DNA of 45,777 bases from Planctomycetaceae bacterium (GTDB lineage: Bacteria > Planctomycetota > Planctomycetia > Planctomycetales > Planctomycetaceae). How positions within the stretch are numbered: the stretch's first letter is position 1; the number at the start of each line of letters is the position of its first letter. The stretch is taken from the NCBI GenBank assembly GCA_024742875.1, contig JANSXP010000056.1:1-45777 (forward strand), given 5' to 3'. The notes beneath the pieces were generated by a model. It searched no databases. It worked only from the letters and a program-made list of their open reading frames with translations, and was not told the origin of the DNA. A program made the position numbers and the translations under genes. Below, in pieces: positions 4,468 to 45,777 of the stretch.

Positions 4468-4983
4468 ATGGCCTTCACCTTCCGTCCCGCCACCGTCGCC
4501 GAATCTGACATCATCACCGACTTCAACTGCCGACTCGCCGCAGAAACCGAAGACAAAACCCTGCCCACCAATGTCGTCTCCCGCGGTGTCCAGCGCGGCT
4601 TCCAGCAGGGCGCAGAAGTTCAATACTACGTCGCCGAAGACGGCGACACCGTCATCGGACAAATCATGCTCACCCGCGAATGGTCCGACTGGCGCGACGG
4701 CTGGGCCGCCTGGATTCAAAGCGTCTACGTCCACGCCGACTACCGCGGCCAGGGTGTCTTCCGCCAACTGTTCCACCACGTCGCCGAACAACTCAAACAG
4801 GATCCCGACGTCGTCCTCGTCCGCCTCTACGTCGAACAGGACAACGCACCCGCCATCGCCACCTACCAAAAACTCGGCTTCACCGACCCCGGCTACCGCG
4901 TCATGGAACTCGCCCTCGGCGGCCGGGACGCCCCGGCGGGCGATGGCGGCCGCGATGCCGCGGCGGGCGAGGGCGTTGGGTAG
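4468..4983 (+). CDS. GNAT family N-acetyltransferase with repeat-derived C-terminal tail
   Basis: 171 residues. The acetyl-CoA-binding motif A is clear: WIQSVYVHADYRGQGVFRQL (about residues 91-110, R/QxxGxG/A-type loop RGQGVF), and motif B follows (VRLYVEQDNAPAIATYQKLGF, about 120-141; Tyr in ATYQKLGF). Residues 1-150 make a complete GNAT domain; the acceptor substrate is unknown. The last 20 or so residues (GGRDAPAGDGGRDAAAGEGV) are not part of the fold: they are the translation of two hairpin ends of the intergenic repeat that starts at 4921. The native stop therefore seems to have been displaced by the repeat. No strong ribosome site is seen before the ATG. Confidence 0.88.
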   Translation: MAFTFRPATVAESDIITDFNCRLAAETEDKTLPTNVVSRGVQRGFQQGAEVQYYVAEDGDTVIGQIMLTREWSDWRDGWAAWIQSVYVHADYRGQGVFRQLFHHVAEQLKQDPDVVLVRLYVEQDNAPAIATYQKLGFTDPGYRVMELALGGRDAPAGDGGRDAAAGEGVG

Positions 4984-5369
4984 ACGATGCTGCGTGGAAC
5001 GTCGCTGCGCCTGCTCGCTCCGCGTTGCTTCGCTATCGACAGACCAGGTGGCACCGCGCTTGGCCGCGACGGCCGAGACGCCGCGGCGTGCGATGGCGTG
5101 GGGCCGCGTTGCACGCGGCTGACAATGCTGCGTGCAACGTCGCTACGCCGGCTCGCGTCGCTGCGTTTACCCGTTGCCTCGCTATCGACAAGCGAGGTGG
5201 CACCGCGTTTGGCCGCGACGGCCGGGGTGCCGCGGCGTGCGGTGGCGTGGGGCCGCGTTGCACGCGGCTGATAATGCTGCGTGCAACGTCGCTACGCCCG
5301 CTCGCGTCGCTGCGTTTACCCGTTGCGTCGCGATCGACAAGCGAGGTGGCACCGCGTTTGGCCGCGATG
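4921..5369 (+). repeat. Intergenic repeat block 1: tandem array with 149-base period
   Basis: Three successive copies of one unit: 4948-5070 (short by about 26 bases), 5071-5219 and 5220-5368 (149 bases each, nearly identical). An additional hairpin end lies at 4922-4937. Each unit starts with a GC hairpin of type GCCGCG-ACGC-CGCGGC followed by GGGCGATGGCGTGG. Units 2 and 3 carry a second hairpin (GCCGCG-TTGCA-CGCGGC, 5103-5119 in unit 2), and all units contain a CGCTATCGACA-type box and end with GGTGGCACCGCG. The block starts inside the acetyltransferase gene. Confidence 0.9.
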
Positions 5370-5467
5370 GCAAAGCGAGCGTTACTCGCGGCTGACGAAG
5401 CTGAGTGGACAGTTCTCCGACTTCGTGAGATTCTGCCGTCCCGCTACGGCGTCCTGACCGCCTCCCA
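5370..5467. repeat. Decayed end of repeat block 1
   Basis: After the third unit the sequence keeps fragments of the repeat (CTCGCGGCTGACGAAGCTG at about 5386-5404) and then, read on the minus strand, GGACGCCGTAGCGGGAC, a weak match to an inverted hairpin end. It reaches the stop codon of the next gene at 5468. The right terminus is inferred from this weak match. Confidence 0.4.
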
Positions 5468-6535
5468 TCACACCAGCCCATCGTCCCACGGATCGTGGCC
5501 CTCATACATTTCGTCCAGTCGTCGGGCCTCTTCGTGGTCATCATGAAAATCCGGATCCACATTCGGACTGCGCTCTTCCTCATCAAAGCGTGTGCGATCC
5601 TCTGCCGTCAGGGCAGTTTCCGATTCAAATCCTCCGTAAGCCTCCGGTCGCTCCCAGGGCAATTCCTCGAATTCCGTCTGCCCGTTGAAACGATCGACAC
5701 TGGATTCTTCATCTTCCCGTTCGCGACGACCGTTGTCGTAAAGCGAGGCGTCGTCGTAGGACTCGCCCAAATGCCCGCTGTCCAATGGACCGTCCTCCGA
5801 AAGATGCATCCACATCGGCTGACCTTCCTTGTTCTGGACAACGTCTCCGAACTGCTCATGCAGCGCAGCCAACCGCGAGTCTTCGATATAGTTCCCCGTC
5901 AAAATCAGTTGGGTGATCTGCGGCAATGAGCACGCTTCCAGAAACTCGACCGCGGATATGCTCACTTCATTGTCGGCAAGGTCAAGGATCAGCAGTCGCT
6001 CCAGATCAAGACCTCTCAGGAAGGGCACAACATCGCTATCCCGCAGGCTGCAGCCTCTCATCCGAAATCCATTGAGATTCGCGAATCGTGGGTCTGTCGC
6101 GATCCGCTGCAACTGCTCCCCAGTCACCCGGATTAGTTCCAACACGCGAATCGGCCCCAGCTCACTCAGCACATCCCAGTGATCGAGAAGAAACTCGGCG
6201 TCGAGCTTCAGTTCTTCAATAAAGCCGCCACGGTACGTCCAGCTTCGCAGAGGCCCTTCCTCGGGGTCCAACTCAGAGAGCTGCAGACGCCCGCGAAGCA
6301 GCTCCAAAACCGGCGCGTCCCACTGGTCTCTGTTTTCCTCCAGCAGCATTGACTGCTGCATCTCAAAATCACCTCGCCAGTCGTGTTGCTCGGGCAGGCT
6401 CTTCAACGCCAGCTGGACACGAATGAAGTCCGCCCGAGCAGATCCCTGCTCCTCATACCAGTCCGCCGCAATCAACCGCAAATCCAGATTGTCAGGGTCG
6501 TCACGAATCGCCTTCTCAAATTCATCCGCCTTCAT
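5468..6535 (-). CDS. TIGR02996-domain protein with leucine-rich-type segment
   Basis: 355 residues from the ATG at 6535, which has a GGAGG-like site about 12 bases upstream. The frame is open for 69 more codons upstream, but most of that is repeat DNA (VAAPARVAALTRR), so it is excluded. Residues 1-45 (FEKAIRDDPDNLDLRLIAAD, then WYEEQGSARADFIRVQL) are the planctomycete repeat-companion domain TIGR02996. Residues about 120-260 show leucine-rich spacing (LERLLILDLADNEVS, ITQLILTGNYIEDSRLAALH). The last 100 residues are very acidic and probably disordered. It has no signal peptide and probably acts in the cytoplasm through protein contacts; the role is unknown. It lies downstream of the kinase and protease genes on the same strand. 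Confidence 0.8.
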   Translation of the reverse strand: MKADEFEKAIRDDPDNLDLRLIAADWYEEQGSARADFIRVQLALKSLPEQHDWRGDFEMQQSMLLEENRDQWDAPVLELLRGRLQLSELDPEEGPLRSWTYRGGFIEELKLDAEFLLDHWDVLSELGPIRVLELIRVTGEQLQRIATDPRFANLNGFRMRGCSLRDSDVVPFLRGLDLERLLILDLADNEVSISAVEFLEACSLPQITQLILTGNYIEDSRLAALHEQFGDVVQNKEGQPMWMHLSEDGPLDSGHLGESYDDASLYDNGRREREDEESSVDRFNGQTEFEELPWERPEAYGGFESETALTAEDRTRFDEEERSPNVDPDFHDDHEEARRLDEMYEGHDPWDDGLV

Positions 6536-6592
6536 CAGCACGCCTCCGACCCTCCAACCTATCCTCATCAGCTCCACCTGCCTACCCCGAAC

Positions 6593-6777
6593 GGCCGCGC
6601 TGCCGCTGCGGGCGATGGCGCAGGGCCGCGCTGCACACAGCTGACGATGCTGCGTGGGAGGTCGCTTGTCAATAGCGCAGCGACGTGTAAGCGCAGCGAC
6701 GCGAGCCGGCGCAGCGACATCCCATTTCAATCGACGATCCACGCCACCGCCCGCCGCGGCGTCGCGGCCGACCCGGC
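6593..6777. repeat. Intergenic repeat block 2: head-to-head inverted copies
   Basis: A forward partial copy (from 6593: GGCCGCGCTGCCGCTGCGGG, then the GCTGACGATGCTGCGTGG segment) meets a reversed copy (about 6667-6768) whose terminal hairpin GCCGCGGCGTCGCGGC is at 6753-6768. Only nine bases separate that hairpin from the stop codon of the protease gene (6778-6780). The left end is 58 bases upstream of the start of the TIGR02996 gene. The block thus fills the whole gap. Confidence 0.85.
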
Positions 6778-7764
6778 TTAGGTGAGCGTGATGGGGAGGA
6801 GTTTTTCCTGGCGGATGATGGAGAGGTTGAGCTGGATGCCTTCGGGGGCGACGGCGAGGAGTCGGTGCACGTCGTCGACGGAGGTGACCAGTCGATCGTT
6901 GACGGAGACAATGATGTCGCCAATCTGCAGCCCCGCTTGTTCGGCCGCGCTGCGACGGGTGACATCGCTCAACTGGACGCCCTGACTGTTGAGCAGGTCC
7001 AGAGAACGGACCAGCGGGGCGGGAATGCGGACCGACATGGCACGAACGCCCATCTGACGTCGACGGATGCGCCCGTGCTGGAGGAACTCTTCCACGATCC
7101 AGCGGACGGTGTTGCCAGGAACAGCGAAGCCAAGCCCCTGCGCCATGGCGATGATAGCCGTGTTGACGCCAACAACGCGACCGCGGGAATCCACCAGTGG
7201 CCCCCCGCTGTTGCCCGGATTGATGGGGGCCGCGTGCTGGACAATGTTGGAAATCAGCCGGCCATCCTGCGCTCGCATGCTGCGTCCCAGTGCGCTCACC
7301 ACTCCTGTGGACACGGTGGCATGCAGTCCCATCGGAGAGCCCATCGCAATGACCAGCTGCCCGACTCGAAGGCCGCCGGAGTCGCCGAGCTCAGCGACCG
7401 GCAGGTCGGAAGCACGCAGCTGCAGCACGGCCAGGTCTGTGGCAGGATCGTCGCCGATGACTGTGGCGTCGATCCTGTCCCCTTCGGGAAGTTCGGCCGT
7501 CATGGTGGAGCGACCATCAACAACGTGGCTGTTGGTGACAGCAACGCCGTCCGGGGTCAGCAGAAAGCCGGAACCGGAACCGCGGCCGCGGCCCGTCAAA
7601 CTCATCACCGCAGGCGACACGGTGTCAACCACATGAACGACGGCCTGAGAGTAGGCGTCCAGCAGGTCGGCATCTCCGGAACCGTCTCCGCGTGACAACG
7701 GCGGCTGATCAGGTTGTGATCCACTCAGATACTGAAGTGCACGGTTGTTGATTTCGTGGCCCAT
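6778..7764 (-). CDS. Trypsin-like serine protease with PDZ domain (HtrA/Deg type)
   Basis: 328 residues. The chymotrypsin-fold protease domain (about 40-225) has the full triad: His80 (VTNSHVVDG), Asp110 (DPATDLAVLQL) and Ser186 (INPGNSGGPL). A PDZ domain follows (about 245-328; SAAEQAGLQIGDIIVSVND). Deg-family enzymes degrade or chaperone damaged proteins and usually work outside the cytoplasm, but this one begins MGHEINNRALQYLSG and has no signal peptide or membrane anchor, so a cytoplasmic place is likely unless the true start is different. It is preceded by the kinase gene with a 108-base gap, which fits an operon. Confidence 0.9.
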   Translation of the reverse strand: MGHEINNRALQYLSGSQPDQPPLSRGDGSGDADLLDAYSQAVVHVVDTVSPAVMSLTGRGRGSGSGFLLTPDGVAVTNSHVVDGRSTMTAELPEGDRIDATVIGDDPATDLAVLQLRASDLPVAELGDSGGLRVGQLVIAMGSPMGLHATVSTGVVSALGRSMRAQDGRLISNIVQHAAPINPGNSGGPLVDSRGRVVGVNTAIIAMAQGLGFAVPGNTVRWIVEEFLQHGRIRRRQMGVRAMSVRIPAPLVRSLDLLNSQGVQLSDVTRRSAAEQAGLQIGDIIVSVNDRLVTSVDDVHRLLAVAPEGIQLNLSIIRQEKLLPITLT

Positions 7765-7872
7765 CGCATGGTCTCCGCGGCAAACAGGAATCAGCTTCCA
7801 TTCTTCGCCAACGACGGCCTGCCGTCGATGGATTTCTGCAATCCGTAAAAAAGCTCACCAACTCTCACCGTG

Positions 7873-9831
7873 TCATTCACCGGCCCTTAACTTTGCCAGC
7901 TCGATTTGCCACGTTTTGGCAGCTGTCTGGTCACCCAGCTCCTGACACGTGCTCGACAGTTGTTCCAGCACGTGAGCCAGCCGCCGCTGCCGCACCACTT
8001 CCGGGATCTGATCACGAAACTGCGACAGCCCGTTCCAGGCAATCGTCAGGTCCGTGCGGGCAGACTCCCGATCTTCCAAACCAAGACTGGCATCTGCACG
8101 CTGGGCGTACGCGAAAAATAATCGCCAGTCGTCAGAATCGATGTTTTTCCGGATGTCGATTTCCCGACGAGCGTAGTCCTGAGCCTGTTCAAAATTCTGC
8201 CGCACCAGCGCCACCGTCGTGAGCACCGACAACGTGACCGCATTAGTGCCCTGTTTCAGCGATTCGTCAAAATCCAGAACGCCCCCCGCTCCGGTGAGCA
8301 TCGCTTCTGATTCCGGACTGAGAAAAAGCTGCAGGTTGTCTTCCACCTGATCCAGCATCGACAGATTGCCCGCCACATCGGCGACCGCGCTGGACGCCGC
8401 CAGCGTGGTGCTCATGGGTTTCACCAGCTTGATCGTATCCGCCAATCCCCGTGAAAGCCGCGGAGAACTGTCGATGGTCTGCCGCAGTGCCTGCCATGTT
8501 GACTCTTCCTGCACCACCTCCGCTTTGGCCTGCTTGCGGTCTTCCGCCTGCAGCAGACCAATCAACACTTCGCGGAAGACCTCGATGGCCACCGACCCTT
8601 CCATACTTTCCAGCCGGGCCTTCCGGGCAGACGCCTGCGCCAGCTTCTCCAGTTCCTGCGCCTGCCTGAGCGCCTCTTCCATTTCCGAACGCGCCGCAAT
8701 CGCGTCCCGTTCAGAATTGGCCGCGTTGATCGCCTGACTGATACTGATCGCTGTCGTGGCAACCAGCACGCACAAAAACGCGGCCGCCACTCCCACGGCC
8801 ATCACATGCTTGCGCAAAAACTTCTGCATGCGATACGAGGCCGAAGGCGGCCGTGCTTCAATCGGCTCCTTTGCCAGAAACCGCTGCATGTCGTCCGCCA
8901 GATCACTGCAAGTGCCGTATCGCCGCGAGCGATCTTTCTCCAGGGCCTTCATGGCAATCCAGTCCAGGTCCCCCTTGAGTGTCTGGCTCAGCCGCCGCGG
9001 ATCCAGCCGGCGATGTTTCGAAATCCCCGGCAGCCGATCCCCCGATTCACTCAATCGAGAACTGGGTCTCGGCGGATCATCTTCGCGAATAATCCGCAGC
9101 ACCTGATCAAATGCCCGCTCCCTGACCGTTTGCCGTTGCAGTGGTGTGGAGCCCGTCAGCAGTTCATACATCAGCACGCCCAGCGAATACACGTCCGTTC
9201 GCGTGTCCACATCCAGCGCGTTCATCTCCGCCTGTTCGGGAGACATATACTCCAGCGTGCCCACCACTTGACCAAACTGAGTGAACATCGTTCGCTCAGT
9301 CAATCGCTGCTGCAGCGCCTTAGCCAGCCCGAAGTCAATCACCTTGGGCACCGGCACGCCATCATACAGCGTCACCAGAATATTCGACGGCTTGATGTCC
9401 CGATGAATAATCCCCTTCTGATGCGCATGCTGTATCGCATGGCACACGGGGATCAAAAGCTGCAGACGATCCTGCAGTGTCAGCTGATTGCGATCACAGT
9501 AATCCGTGATCGGAATGCCCTGCACGAGCTCCATTACAAAATACGGACGCTCATCCTCAGTCGTGCCAGCGTCCAGCACCCGGGCGATATTCTGATGATC
9601 CATCATCGCCAGTGCCTGCCGCTCCGCCTCAAACCGAGCGATCACCTGACGCGAATCCATCCCCGCCTTGATCAGCTTCAACGCCACCCGACGACGGACC
9701 GGCTCCTGCTGCTCCGCCATGTAAACCGATCCCATACCGCCTTCACCCAATGGCTGCAGCAGCTTGTACGGCCCCACGGTCTCCTGACCAAAGTCCGCCT
9801 CCGGATCAATAAACGTATCAGCATCACTCAT
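7873..9831 (-). CDS. Membrane-anchored Ser/Thr protein kinase (PknB/Hanks type)
   Basis: 652 residues from the ATG at 9831; a TTG at 9861 is in frame and closer to a GGGAGG site, so the start is uncertain by ten codons. Kinase domain about 22-320: glycine loop [10 protein letters not shown] (28-37), ATP lysine in VALKLIK (Lys52), catalytic loop HRDIKPSN (Asp145), DFG (166-168) and SPEQ. One transmembrane helix lies at about 343-366, followed by a coiled-coil-like stretch (370-410) and a helical C-terminal half with TPR-like spacing that may be the sensor or partner-binding part. It probably phosphorylates cytosolic targets in response to an envelope signal. It lies upstream of the Deg-type protease on the same strand. 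Confidence 0.93.
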
Positions 9832-9867
9832 CCCGTAAGTATGACACCCACCTCCCACCAATTCCAG

Positions 9868-10431
9868 CCGGCCGCGATGCCGCGGCGGGCGGTGGCGTGG
9901 GATGGTCGATACTGCGTGGATCGTCCCGGCGCCGAGTCGCTCCGCGTTGCTGCGCTATCGACAATCGGGGTAGCACCGCGCCTGAACCGGGACCCAGCGG
10001 GTAGGGGGCGCGATACCGCGGCGGGCGCTGGCGTGGGGTGGTGGATGCTGCGTGGATCCGAGCGTGGGCCATTCGCAGACGAGCGTGAATGCGCAGGCGG
10101 AAGTGAGCACAGCGAACCTCGGCAAGTCCGGGATGACACGCCAGGCGGTCTCGCGAGTCTGCAGTCCAGCCGACACAGAAGCATGCCCCGCGGGCTGACC
10201 AAGCGCGGTGCCACGCCTCATGTCGATAACACAGCAACGCGTTTCGGTGCAGCGACGTCACATTTCCATCGAACATCCACGCCCTTGCCCGCCCCGGTCC
10301 AGACGCGGTGCTACCCCGATTGTCGATAGCGCAGCAACGCGGAGCGACTCGGCGCAGAGATTCGCCACAAAGAGTGGACACCAGCTGCGCAGCAGCGGCC
10401 CACGTCATCGCCTGCCGCGGCGTCGCGGCCG
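9868..10431. repeat. Intergenic repeat block 3: large inverted arrangement
   Basis: Two forward copies (about 9871-9980 and 10008-10070) and two reversed copies (about 10203-10290 and 10304-10429) surround about 130 bases of other sequence. Terminal hairpins are at 9871-9886 (GCCGCGATGCCGCGGC) and 10414-10429 (GCCGCGGCGTCGCGGC). The segments 9929-9980 and 10304-10355 are perfect inverted repeats of 52 bases. The left end is 40 bases from the kinase start; the right end is five bases from the SulP stop codon. The inner 10071-10200 holds nothing recognisable. Confidence 0.9.
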
Positions 10432-27059: not shown

Positions 27060-27205
27060 GTTGTTGCTCCTGTGTAGGAATTCCGTTTCCTGCCCGCGAT
27101 TGTCTTTCGCGCTTTGATTGTCTTCCGCGCTTTTTCTCCGGCTGCGTGTCGGCCAACCAGGTGTCCACAGTCTGACTGGTGTCTGCGATGACGACTTGTT
27201 GGCCC

Positions 27206-27250
27206 GCCGATTGAGGGCGGCCGATTGAGGGCGGCCGATTGAGGGCGGCC
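27206..27250. repeat. 14-base tandem repeat, three copies
   Basis: GCCGATTGAGGGCG occurs three times head to tail (27206-27219, 27220-27233, 27234-27247), and GCC begins a fourth. Related words (GGCCCGCCGA) recur at 27201 and about 27268-27290. The cluster lies in the 265-base gap upstream of the SDR gene. Confidence 0.85.
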
Positions 27251-27324
27251 AAGCGCCGGAGATGTTGGCCCGCCGAGATCGGCCCGCCGATTGAGGTCGA
27301 CCTGTTGAGGATCGGTCGACTGGA

Positions 27325-36463: not shown

Positions 36464-36540
<77 letters not shown>

Positions 36541-38440: not shown

Positions 38441-39730
38441 ATGGCTGGGTGCGATGGGAGTCGAGTCGTTGTCACCGGTGTTGGGGTCGTGTCCCCCATC
38501 GGCATTGGCAAAGATGACTTCTGGGCTAGCTTGACGAACAACACTTCCGGCATTGGCTATCTGGAGTCAATGGACGCGGAGGATCTGCCGTCACCGTTTG
38601 GCGCTGAAGTCCGCAACTTCAATCCGGCCGCCTACGTGCGTGACCGCAAATTCCTCAAAGTCATGTCCCGCGACATGCAGCTCGGCGTTGCCTCCGCCAA
38701 CCTCGCCATGCAGGACACCAACCTGTCCGTCGGCGATATCGATCCCTACCGTCTGGGTGTCGTCTACGGCGCCGGTCGCATGACCACCCATCCGTCCGAA
38801 CTGGCCGCCGCTGTAGAAGCGAGCCGTGATGAAAATTCCGAGTTCTCCATGACCCGCTGGGGCGAAGGCGGCATGGGGCGTGTGGCACCGCTATGGCTGC
38901 TCAAGCAGCTGCCCAATATGCCGGCCTGCCACATCTCCATCGATCACAACGCCTGCGGTCCCAACAACACCATCACCTGCCGGGATGCCTCGGCGCTGCT
39001 GGCTCTGGCGGAAGCCGTTCGCGTCATCGAAGCGGGGCGGGCCGATGCCATGATTGTCGGTGCCTGCAGTTCCAACATCCACCCGGTCGACATCGCCAAG
39101 TTCCACCGCTTTGAAGGGCTGTCCAAACGAGACGACGATCCTTCCCGCGCCTGCCGACCGTTCGACTTTGAACGTGACGGAGCCGTTGTGGGCGAAGGCG
39201 CGGCGACCTTCGTTGTGGAAAGCTACGAACACGCCAAACGTCGTGGAGCGGAAATCTACGCAGAAGTCCTTGGTATCGGCGCTGGTAGTGACGGCAAAGG
39301 TTACGCCAACGAGTCCGGCGGTCTGGGCCTGGTCCGAGCCATCGAATCCAGCGTCAAACGAGCCGGCATTCGTCCGGAAGAACTGGGCCACATCAACGCT
39401 CAGGGCAAGAGCACGCAAACCGACGACATCGTCGAAAGCCGTGCCTACCATCGCGCTCTGGGCGACTGTGTCCTCAAAGTGCCGGTCACCGCCATGAAGA
39501 GTTTCGTGGGCCACTTCGACGCCGGCGCTGGAGCCGTGGAACTGGCGGGAACCCTGCTGTCACTTCGCAACGGCGAGGTGCCGGCCACTCTCAACTACGA
39601 AATCCCGGACCCCCGCTGTCGACTCAATGTGGTTGAAGGTGGTCCGCGATCTGTCCGCAGTCGCACGGCTCTTACCGTCAATCGCACGGCCATTGGCCAA
39701 AGCGCGGCGGCCATCCTTCGCGCCATCTAA
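38441..39730 (+). CDS. Beta-ketoacyl-ACP synthase-like protein with altered active site
   Basis: 429 residues from the ATG at 38441 (a TTG six bases earlier is in frame). The thiolase fold of KAS II is present throughout: VVVTGVGVVSPIGIGKDDFW (9-28), DRDGAVVGEGAATFVVE, VPVTAMKSFVGHFDAGAGAVE. Catalytic Cys172 is in HNACGPNNT, Lys353 in AMKS and the second His358 in VGHFDAG. At the first His (normally VNAHGTST) it reads INAQGKST, so Gln321 replaces the catalytic His needed for malonyl decarboxylation. It may be a non-elongating or chain-starting relative, or have another role. No fatty-acid genes are adjacent. Confidence 0.88.
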   Translation: MAGCDGSRVVVTGVGVVSPIGIGKDDFWASLTNNTSGIGYLESMDAEDLPSPFGAEVRNFNPAAYVRDRKFLKVMSRDMQLGVASANLAMQDTNLSVGDIDPYRLGVVYGAGRMTTHPSELAAAVEASRDENSEFSMTRWGEGGMGRVAPLWLLKQLPNMPACHISIDHNACGPNNTITCRDASALLALAEAVRVIEAGRADAMIVGACSSNIHPVDIAKFHRFEGLSKRDDDPSRACRPFDFERDGAVVGEGAATFVVESYEHAKRRGAEIYAEVLGIGAGSDGKGYANESGGLGLVRAIESSVKRAGIRPEELGHINAQGKSTQTDDIVESRAYHRALGDCVLKVPVTAMKSFVGHFDAGAGAVELAGTLLSLRNGEVPATLNYEIPDPRCRLNVVEGGPRSVRSRTALTVNRTAIGQSAAAILRAI

Positions 39731-45055: not shown

Positions 45056-45736
45056 ATGAATCCCATTGATATTCTGGGCGGACTGCTCAAAAAACGCGGC
45101 CGCTCCGGTGGCGGTGGCCTGGGCGGAGCTCTGCTCGAAGGCATCCTCAAAGGCGGCCGCAGAAAATCCTCCCCCCGCGCCCAGGTGGACATGCAGCGCC
45201 CCGCCGGCAGCCCCACCATCATCAAAGACCCCCACCACCAGGAATTCGACAGCCTCGAAGATCTCCTGCACTACTCCAAAAACAAACACCGCACCCGCCG
45301 CGGCCAACTAGCCGAGCGCGAAGAACCCACGCCCGAAATTCCCGGGCTCTCGCAGCGTCAATCCCGCCTGCAGGCAGACTACGAAGCCAACCCCCAGCCC
45401 TTCAACGACCGCGCCAAAATCCTCGTCGTCGCCATGATCAACGCGGCCAAAGCCGACGGCCACATCAGCGACGACGAACAACAGCAGGTCCTCAAACAAC
45501 TCGGCGATCTCTCTCAGGACGAAATCGACTTTCTCCGCACAGAGTTCGCCCGCCCCGTCAACGTCCGCGACTTCGCATGGTCCGTTCCCCTCGGCATGGA
45601 AGAACAAGTCTACGGCGTCTCCCTTCTCGCCATCGACGCCGACAACCTCGCCGAAATGGACTACCTCAAAGAACTCGCCCACGGCCTCCGACTCACCCCC
45701 GCCCGCACCCAACAAATCCACGCCGAGTTCTCCTAG
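45056..45736 (+). CDS. DUF533/TerB-like protein
   Basis: 226 residues; AAGGA lies seven bases before the ATG at 45056, 47 bases after the preceding stop. The Gly-rich N-terminus (ILGGLLKKRGRSGGGGLGGA) and the TerB-like helical C-terminus (about 100-226; ILVVAMINAAKADGHISDDE, YGVSLLAIDADNLAEMDYLK, ELAHGLRLTPARTQQI) match the DUF533 (YebE) family. The acidic DGHISDDE loop may bind a metal, as in TerB. The middle is charged and probably disordered. Function of the family is unknown; tellurite resistance should not be assumed. The last base of its TAG stop is the first base of a repeat hairpin. Confidence 0.85.
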   Translation: MNPIDILGGLLKKRGRSGGGGLGGALLEGILKGGRRKSSPRAQVDMQRPAGSPTIIKDPHHQEFDSLEDLLHYSKNKHRTRRGQLAEREEPTPEIPGLSQRQSRLQADYEANPQPFNDRAKILVVAMINAAKADGHISDDEQQQVLKQLGDLSQDEIDFLRTEFARPVNVRDFAWSVPLGMEEQVYGVSLLAIDADNLAEMDYLKELAHGLRLTPARTQQIHAEFS

Positions 45737-45777
45737 CCGGGACGCCCCGGCGGGCGATGGCGTGGTTGGTCGATCAA
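45736..45777 (+). repeat. Intergenic repeat block 4 (cut by window end)
   Basis: Hairpin GCCGGG-ACGC-CCCGGC at 45736-45751, followed by GGGCGATGGCGTGG and GGTCGATCAA at the window edge. The first 27 bases equal those of the hairpin end at 4922 in sequence. It starts on the third base of the TAG stop of the DUF533 gene. Confidence 0.85.

Follow-up and report, generated by a model that had tools for sequence, protein, structure and literature searches.

Hairpin arrays of Fuerstiella genomes often start at stop codons and likely spread as a non-autonomous mobile element

REP and BIME elements of the GTAG class are short GC hairpins present in many copies near the 3' ends of genes, mostly less than 20 bp away in the genomes described, where they form dimers and clusters and often supply TAG stops, according to the accessible part of PMC3733652. 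The hairpin repeat of Fuerstiella reported here shares these traits of hairpin, copy number, place and clustering, but it carries no tag of its own, has no RAYT found in its draft genome (G000) or linked to it in relatives, is built of 65-150-nt units with a conserved tail and a second stem, and starts within a base of the gene's own TAG, TAA or TGA. CGTC-tagged REPs are, like the Fuerstiella repeat, hairpins without a known dedicated transposase, whereas placement at stop codons is a feature of the Fuerstiella repeat that the accessible part of the same paper does not describe for them (PMC3733652). E. coli REPs lying no more than 15 nt from a stop likewise set a hairpin close behind it (PMC12306157, accessible part). 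The Fuerstiella heads differ from these in lying flush to within a base and in their unrelated sequence. Rickettsia palindromic elements are palindromic repeats translated within host proteins; unlike them, the Fuerstiella peptide forms a tail at the C terminus, close to where the native protein ends. The Rickettsia elements are mentioned in the accessible parts of PMC3733652 and PMC2229807. We found no prior description of the Fuerstiella repeat in the accessible literature.

Our analysis leads us to propose, with a probability of about 0.6, that these hairpin arrays, which often start at stop codons, have spread as a non-autonomous mobile element with the help of an enzyme. The window, that is, the whole stretch of DNA analysed, is contig C119 (bases 1-45777) of the 8.18-Mb draft G000 (168 contigs, 98.1% complete), and the genus set comprises eight Fuerstiella genomes (G000 to G007), of which G004 is complete (closed) and seven are drafts. 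Each repeat unit opens with a head, which consists of a 16-nt GC hairpin, its six base pairs enclosing a loop of four bases (often ACGC or ATGC), and then GGGCGRTGGCGTGG. Blocks in the window are arrays of head-opened units up to about 112-150 nt long, with CGCCGAG near position 65; the array period is about 69-78 nt at several loci of relatives, and units stand either in tandem arrays or in inverted arrays facing inward. A pattern search found ten heads in the window against a shuffle mean of 0.24, in agreement with the sequence-only reading that its blocks share hairpin-opened units; an extra match at 38965, within a gene, looks like chance. The features are as follows.

4468..4983, plus strand: GNAT acetyltransferase gene with repeat-derived tail GRDAPAGDGGRDAAAGEGVG
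4921..5400, plus strand: array block downstream of the acetyltransferase; right edge without head, edge approximate
4922..4948, plus strand: first head module, 27 nt, in-frame C-terminal tail of the acetyltransferase, whose homologues end at residue 150-151
4949..4978, plus strand: head, second 27-nt module, opens a full unit
5072..5101, plus strand: head of the second array unit
5221..5250, plus strand: head of the third array unit
6594..6623, plus strand: degenerate head facing the start of gene 5468-6577
6739..6768, minus strand: head 9 nt past the TAA of a trypsin-like protease gene
9871..9900, plus strand: head facing the start of a protein kinase gene
10007..10036, plus strand: second head, in an array shared with the 9871 head
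10400..10429, minus strand: head 4 nt past the TAA of a sulfate permease gene
45736..45765, plus strand: head that starts on the G of the TAG stop in a DUF533 gene; the contig ends within the unit

Block termini had been placed near seven gene ends; the figure is corrected to four heads at gene 3' ends, since the heads at 6594+ and 9871+ face gene starts and the edge at 5467 is headless. The edges at 6768-, 10429- and 45736+ lie 9, 4 and -1 nt from gene stops, and 4922+ lies inside the acetyltransferase frame, where the homologous proteins stop. Some units carry an optional second hairpin, in GCCGCGTTGCACGCGGC or GCTGCTGCGCAGC form, at a fixed point (window 5105-5122; L036:10345-10365). The GGTGGCACCGCG stretch of the unit (window 5042-5056 and other units) has what we take to be a resemblance to the T-box riboswitch consensus; Rfam returned no T-box match, and this identity was set aside. 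No Rfam family reached its gathering score on the blocks (the strongest match below it had E 0.38), so that a known family of that kind does not account for them; the sole window match lies elsewhere, at a tRNA gene (36467-36540, minus strand).

Far from the few copies that would have spoken against such a family, G000 holds 97 by pattern (reversed-pattern control, 0) and at least 142 by a covariance model built from 58 units. The model gave at least 107 copies in G004, 31 in G003, 19 in G005, 14 each in G001 and G007, 4 in G002 and none in G006, so that seven of the eight genus genomes carry heads; 150 candidates were scored per genome, which makes the G000 and G004 counts lower bounds. Contigs break inside arrays in the window (45736-45777), at the ends of C40, C41, C104 and C141 of G000, in C99 and C199 of G001 and at the ends of C54 and C208 of G003, and draft copy numbers are therefore likely underestimates. 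With stricter filters the model matched seven of 81 family genomes, namely G000, G004, G002 and four others with one match each (E 2e-4 to 8e-4), matches outside the genus thus being single and weak. A pattern search of 58 relatives matched ten, the four beyond close kin having one match each or none clear (one each in G008, G014 and G050), and exact matching against a single genome from each species returned 19 stretches, every record being Fuerstiella or uncultured Planctomycetaceae. Carriage by phages was considered and dropped, as no viral contig carried the exact pattern. Within the genomes searched, the repeat is limited to the genus.

Both stem types from which the sequence-only reading had argued for compensation are present in the window, together with two mixed stems (pair 5: A with G at 5072, G with G at 5221), and compensatory changes occur at pairs 2, 5 and 6, that is, at three of six. 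With the tail as the sole query, 403 kb of selected G000 loci gave 117 matches, of which 84 were preceded by stems with at least five of six pairs, wobbles counted, while shuffled controls gave 1-8 tail matches. Among the 58 units of the model, pair 5 is G-C in 41, C-G in 11, A-U in 4 (in relatives) and otherwise in 2, and 17 cells have both partners changed, where shuffling gives 2.7 on average; the second stem, GGC against GCC, shows pairing in 97% of cells and, since it hardly varies, is little tested by compensation. At 32 new loci of G004, a diverged relative, at least five pairs formed in 65 of 71 tail hits, and across all 71 the paired cells numbered 396/426 against a shuffle maximum of 353. 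In the 66 of these hits with at least four pairs, pair 6 is T-A 36 / G-C 27, a change seen only outside the model's alignment, pair 2 is C-G 59 / T-A 4 / G-C 2 / T-G 1, and pair 5 is G-C 59 / A-T 3 / T-A 1 plus three others. RNAalifold returned weak structure for the G000 alignment (89 of 97 units).

A stem maintained in this way would also suit a functional 3'-end hairpin, kept by stops for mRNA-end protection, transcription end or ribosome stalling and spread by its benefit, an explanation that we consider possible if rather unlikely. Stalling has been reported for those E. coli REPs whose distance to a stop is 15 nt or less (PMC12306157, accessible part). Against such a role, however, the head is not followed by a run of U in the sequence, and wobble pairs in 221 stems (G.T 6, A.C 10) show no strand bias; this balance does not point to selection on a single RNA strand and weakly favours folded DNA.

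The placement of the heads carries the argument further. With gene ends taken from a custom codon-usage gene caller, and with an offset of -1 meaning that the last stop base doubles as the first stem base, the offset of outermost stop-side heads from the stop is between -1 and +1 nt for 13 of 26 in G000, 20 of 23 in relatives and 15 of 24 at the new G004 loci (48/73 in total), against 0.96, 1.25 and 0.42 expected under uniform placement in the available room. The relatives' 23 include three asnS orthologues and come with 40 further loci added to the first 40. Room behind stops is ample (medians of 453, 265 and 313 nt in the same order, arrays included), yet few heads lie 10-100 nt past a stop. 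Other observations weigh against landing at stops: the remaining 13 of the 26 G000 heads lie 3 to 31 nt away, and array units are preceded by other sequences. At loosely placed heads the gap often resembles a partial head (TAGCCG, TAGCCGGGACG).

Of 134 heads typed at G000 loci, 67 are array-internal, 26 follow a stop, 16 face a start, 11 are same-strand and 3 opposite-strand within genes, and 11 lack an upstream gene; each of the 11 same-strand in-gene heads lies 34-62 nt before the gene end. Relatives (40 loci) gave 11 internal, 12 after a stop, 9 facing a start, 8 same-strand in-gene (6 of them within 107 nt of the gene end), 5 opposite and 1 with none. In a score-chosen set of 40 loci (32 from G004, overlapping the new loci, and 8 from G000, G001, G003 and G005; 76 of 78 model hits typed, the two weakest dropped), 32 heads follow a stop, 18 of them at -1 to +1, with 7 same-strand in-gene (9-42 nt before the gene end in 6/7), 7 start-side and 30 internal. 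Start-side heads, 26 plus 7 in the score-chosen set, follow no stop-codon rule, so the flush rule is not absolute, and their existence also counts against a 3'-end function. Conversely, such a function would fit the gene arrangement, in which convergent and tandem ends are favoured: 33 blocks flanked by genes on both sides comprise 15 convergent, 16 tandem and 2 divergent cases, against 47, 151 and 57 among 255 neighbouring gene pairs in block loci. Blocks thus avoid divergent pairs (2/33 vs 57/255).

The stop at flush heads belongs to the gene and not to the repeat. Flush stops are TAG 12 and TAA 1 in G000 (n=13) and TAG 13, TAA 4 and TGA 3 in relatives (n=20), with TAG at 85/225 and 180/532 of the other gene ends, and TAG stands within 8 bases of 0/26 start-side heads. 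Comparison between species points the same way: asnS, purH and ilvC (names assigned by NCBIfam) encode proteins with the same end residue in all eight genomes, and the unit lies flush with the intact native end. It follows asnS in G001, G002 and G007 and is absent from five genomes; among the eight, purH has it only in G000 and ilvC only in G005, while purH of G007 is followed by GCCGGAATC, perhaps a remnant, which was left out of the count. This lineage-specific presence at housekeeping genes speaks against a 3'-end function, whereas the asnS units, of one head each, also fit one, the head being kept in three species (first 30 nt identical in two, one base different in the third) with the next stretch diverged. 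Filled and empty sites have diverged too far for the junction, or any duplicated target, to be read. In the window, the DNA that follows the sulfate permease, the shared gene with the best conservation, fails to align.

Host genes that keep their stop retain an intact reading frame, and in those that have lost it the repeat is translated as a short tail of the protein. The window acetyltransferase has 171 residues against 150-151 in its nearest head-free homologues (P0002-P0010), the extra residues reading GRDAPAGDG GRDAAAGEG VG, and a database protein 95% identical to it (P0001) has a tail of the same kind. Heads in the stop-gone genes lie 0.3, -3.7, -0.7, -6.0 and -0.7 codons from the mapped native end, the first value being that of the acetyltransferase head at 4922, figured by hand because the mapping row used the second head. 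Of 62 head-bearing gene ends, 19 have a comparable head-free homologue, and their heads range from 6.0 codons before to 4.7 after the native end, once two rows distorted by repeated modules are set aside; an L035 gene with three 27-nt modules is ambiguous in this mapping. Heads recur as modules of 27 nt, a length divisible by three, and several lie in reading frames (window 4922/4949, L035:16985, L046:8238/8265, L099:12702/12729, L101:7154/7181). That the hairpin tends to begin at a stop and can become a translated C-terminal tail had been missed by the sequence-only reading.

Because heads stay near the native end even where the stop was destroyed, a need for contact between stop and hairpin is not the whole story; the same observation argues against a 3'-end function and leads us to prefer target choice at gene ends. 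We regard the family as REP-like and likely mobile, as lacking an intrinsic TAG tag and as landing at gene ends. More tentatively, we posit a mobile DNA hairpin whose insertion is aimed at stop codons, with neither its own tag nor a known transposase, and which can end up as a protein tail. The hairpin would be copied in trans and recognised as folded DNA; it would land preferentially at gene ends because it chooses them as targets, and not because selection acts afterwards, insertions in gene bodies would be lost, and arrays would enlarge by local tandem and inverted duplication. Known cues by which mobile elements choose their sites are the sequence of the DNA, its structure and the proteins bound to it. 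Heads set no more than a base from the stop in dozens of unrelated genes would indicate that targeting is coupled to where translation or transcription ends, a question made testable by a genus with one closed genome, seven drafts and separately diverged sub-families. The repeat also shows how ordinary proteins gain new C-terminal tails.

The search for a mover found none, which counts against mobility. The sequence-only reading had noted no transposase nearby; none was found there, and for the RAYT type none was found anywhere in the G000 draft. A true REP family whose RAYT (IS200-type) mover has been lost from G000, or lies in the missing part of the draft, would fit the hairpins, their REP-like placement, the TAG stops often supplied by GTAG REPs and the Y1_Tnp genes in 6/8 genus genomes. 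We nevertheless judge it unlikely: no Y1_Tnp was detected in G000, where most copies were found (control positive in 5/14), or in G007, and the RAYT linkage that the sequence-only reading had suggested checking did not materialise, a clear head lying at 1/29 Y1 loci of relatives (29 of 30 matches), about 1.4 kb from the gene; one more such locus has a head match with 6 mismatches. A RAYT partner was accordingly rejected. GTAG occurs at -8 to +1 of 0/26 start-side, 3/49 stop-side and 2/76 array-internal heads (2/65 array-internal heads in G000), so the family has the palindromic, many-copy, near-gene-end habit of GTAG REPs without their tag or RAYT association. A Y2_Tnp profile had no match in G000, its controls being silent too, and the listing of unpaired heads and tails suggested no parent element with a gene inside a long unit. 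In G004, a 6.4-kb stretch (L106:5363-11781), 99.9% identical to another locus, contains two units of the hairpin family together with two gene pairs, each made up of a tyrosine integrase gene and an IS91-type gene. The IS91-type transposase with its integrase was considered as the mover and set aside, although a unit adjoins it in multi-copy DNA; units within such DNA can ride on other elements.

Least probable is a MITE-like element that struck TAG and TAA stops because they contain a TA or TAG target: flush stops are mostly TAG or TAA against 35% (G000) and 42% (relatives) TGA at other gene ends, and TA directly precedes 8/26 and 11/23 stop-side heads in the same order, but it precedes only 1/33 start-side heads (0/26, and 1/7 in the score-chosen set), flush TGA stops occur, and many units are headed at one end only. 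Of the two kinds first suggested for the family, REP/BIME-like habits are thus borne out, whereas a MITE bounded by inverted termini is not supported, single-headed units being common and both orientations present in 11 of the 33 gene-flanked blocks (19 further blocks at contig or locus ends stand outside this count). As for how the arrays of the likely mobile hairpin grow, the L034 block has the loop ATGC in 5/6 forward units and AAGC in 3/3 reverse units, and this split by orientation suggests growth by local duplication. Elsewhere in the window, 27183-27324 holds a 14-nt tandem repeat (GCCGATTGAGGGCG-like) that bears no relation to the heads.
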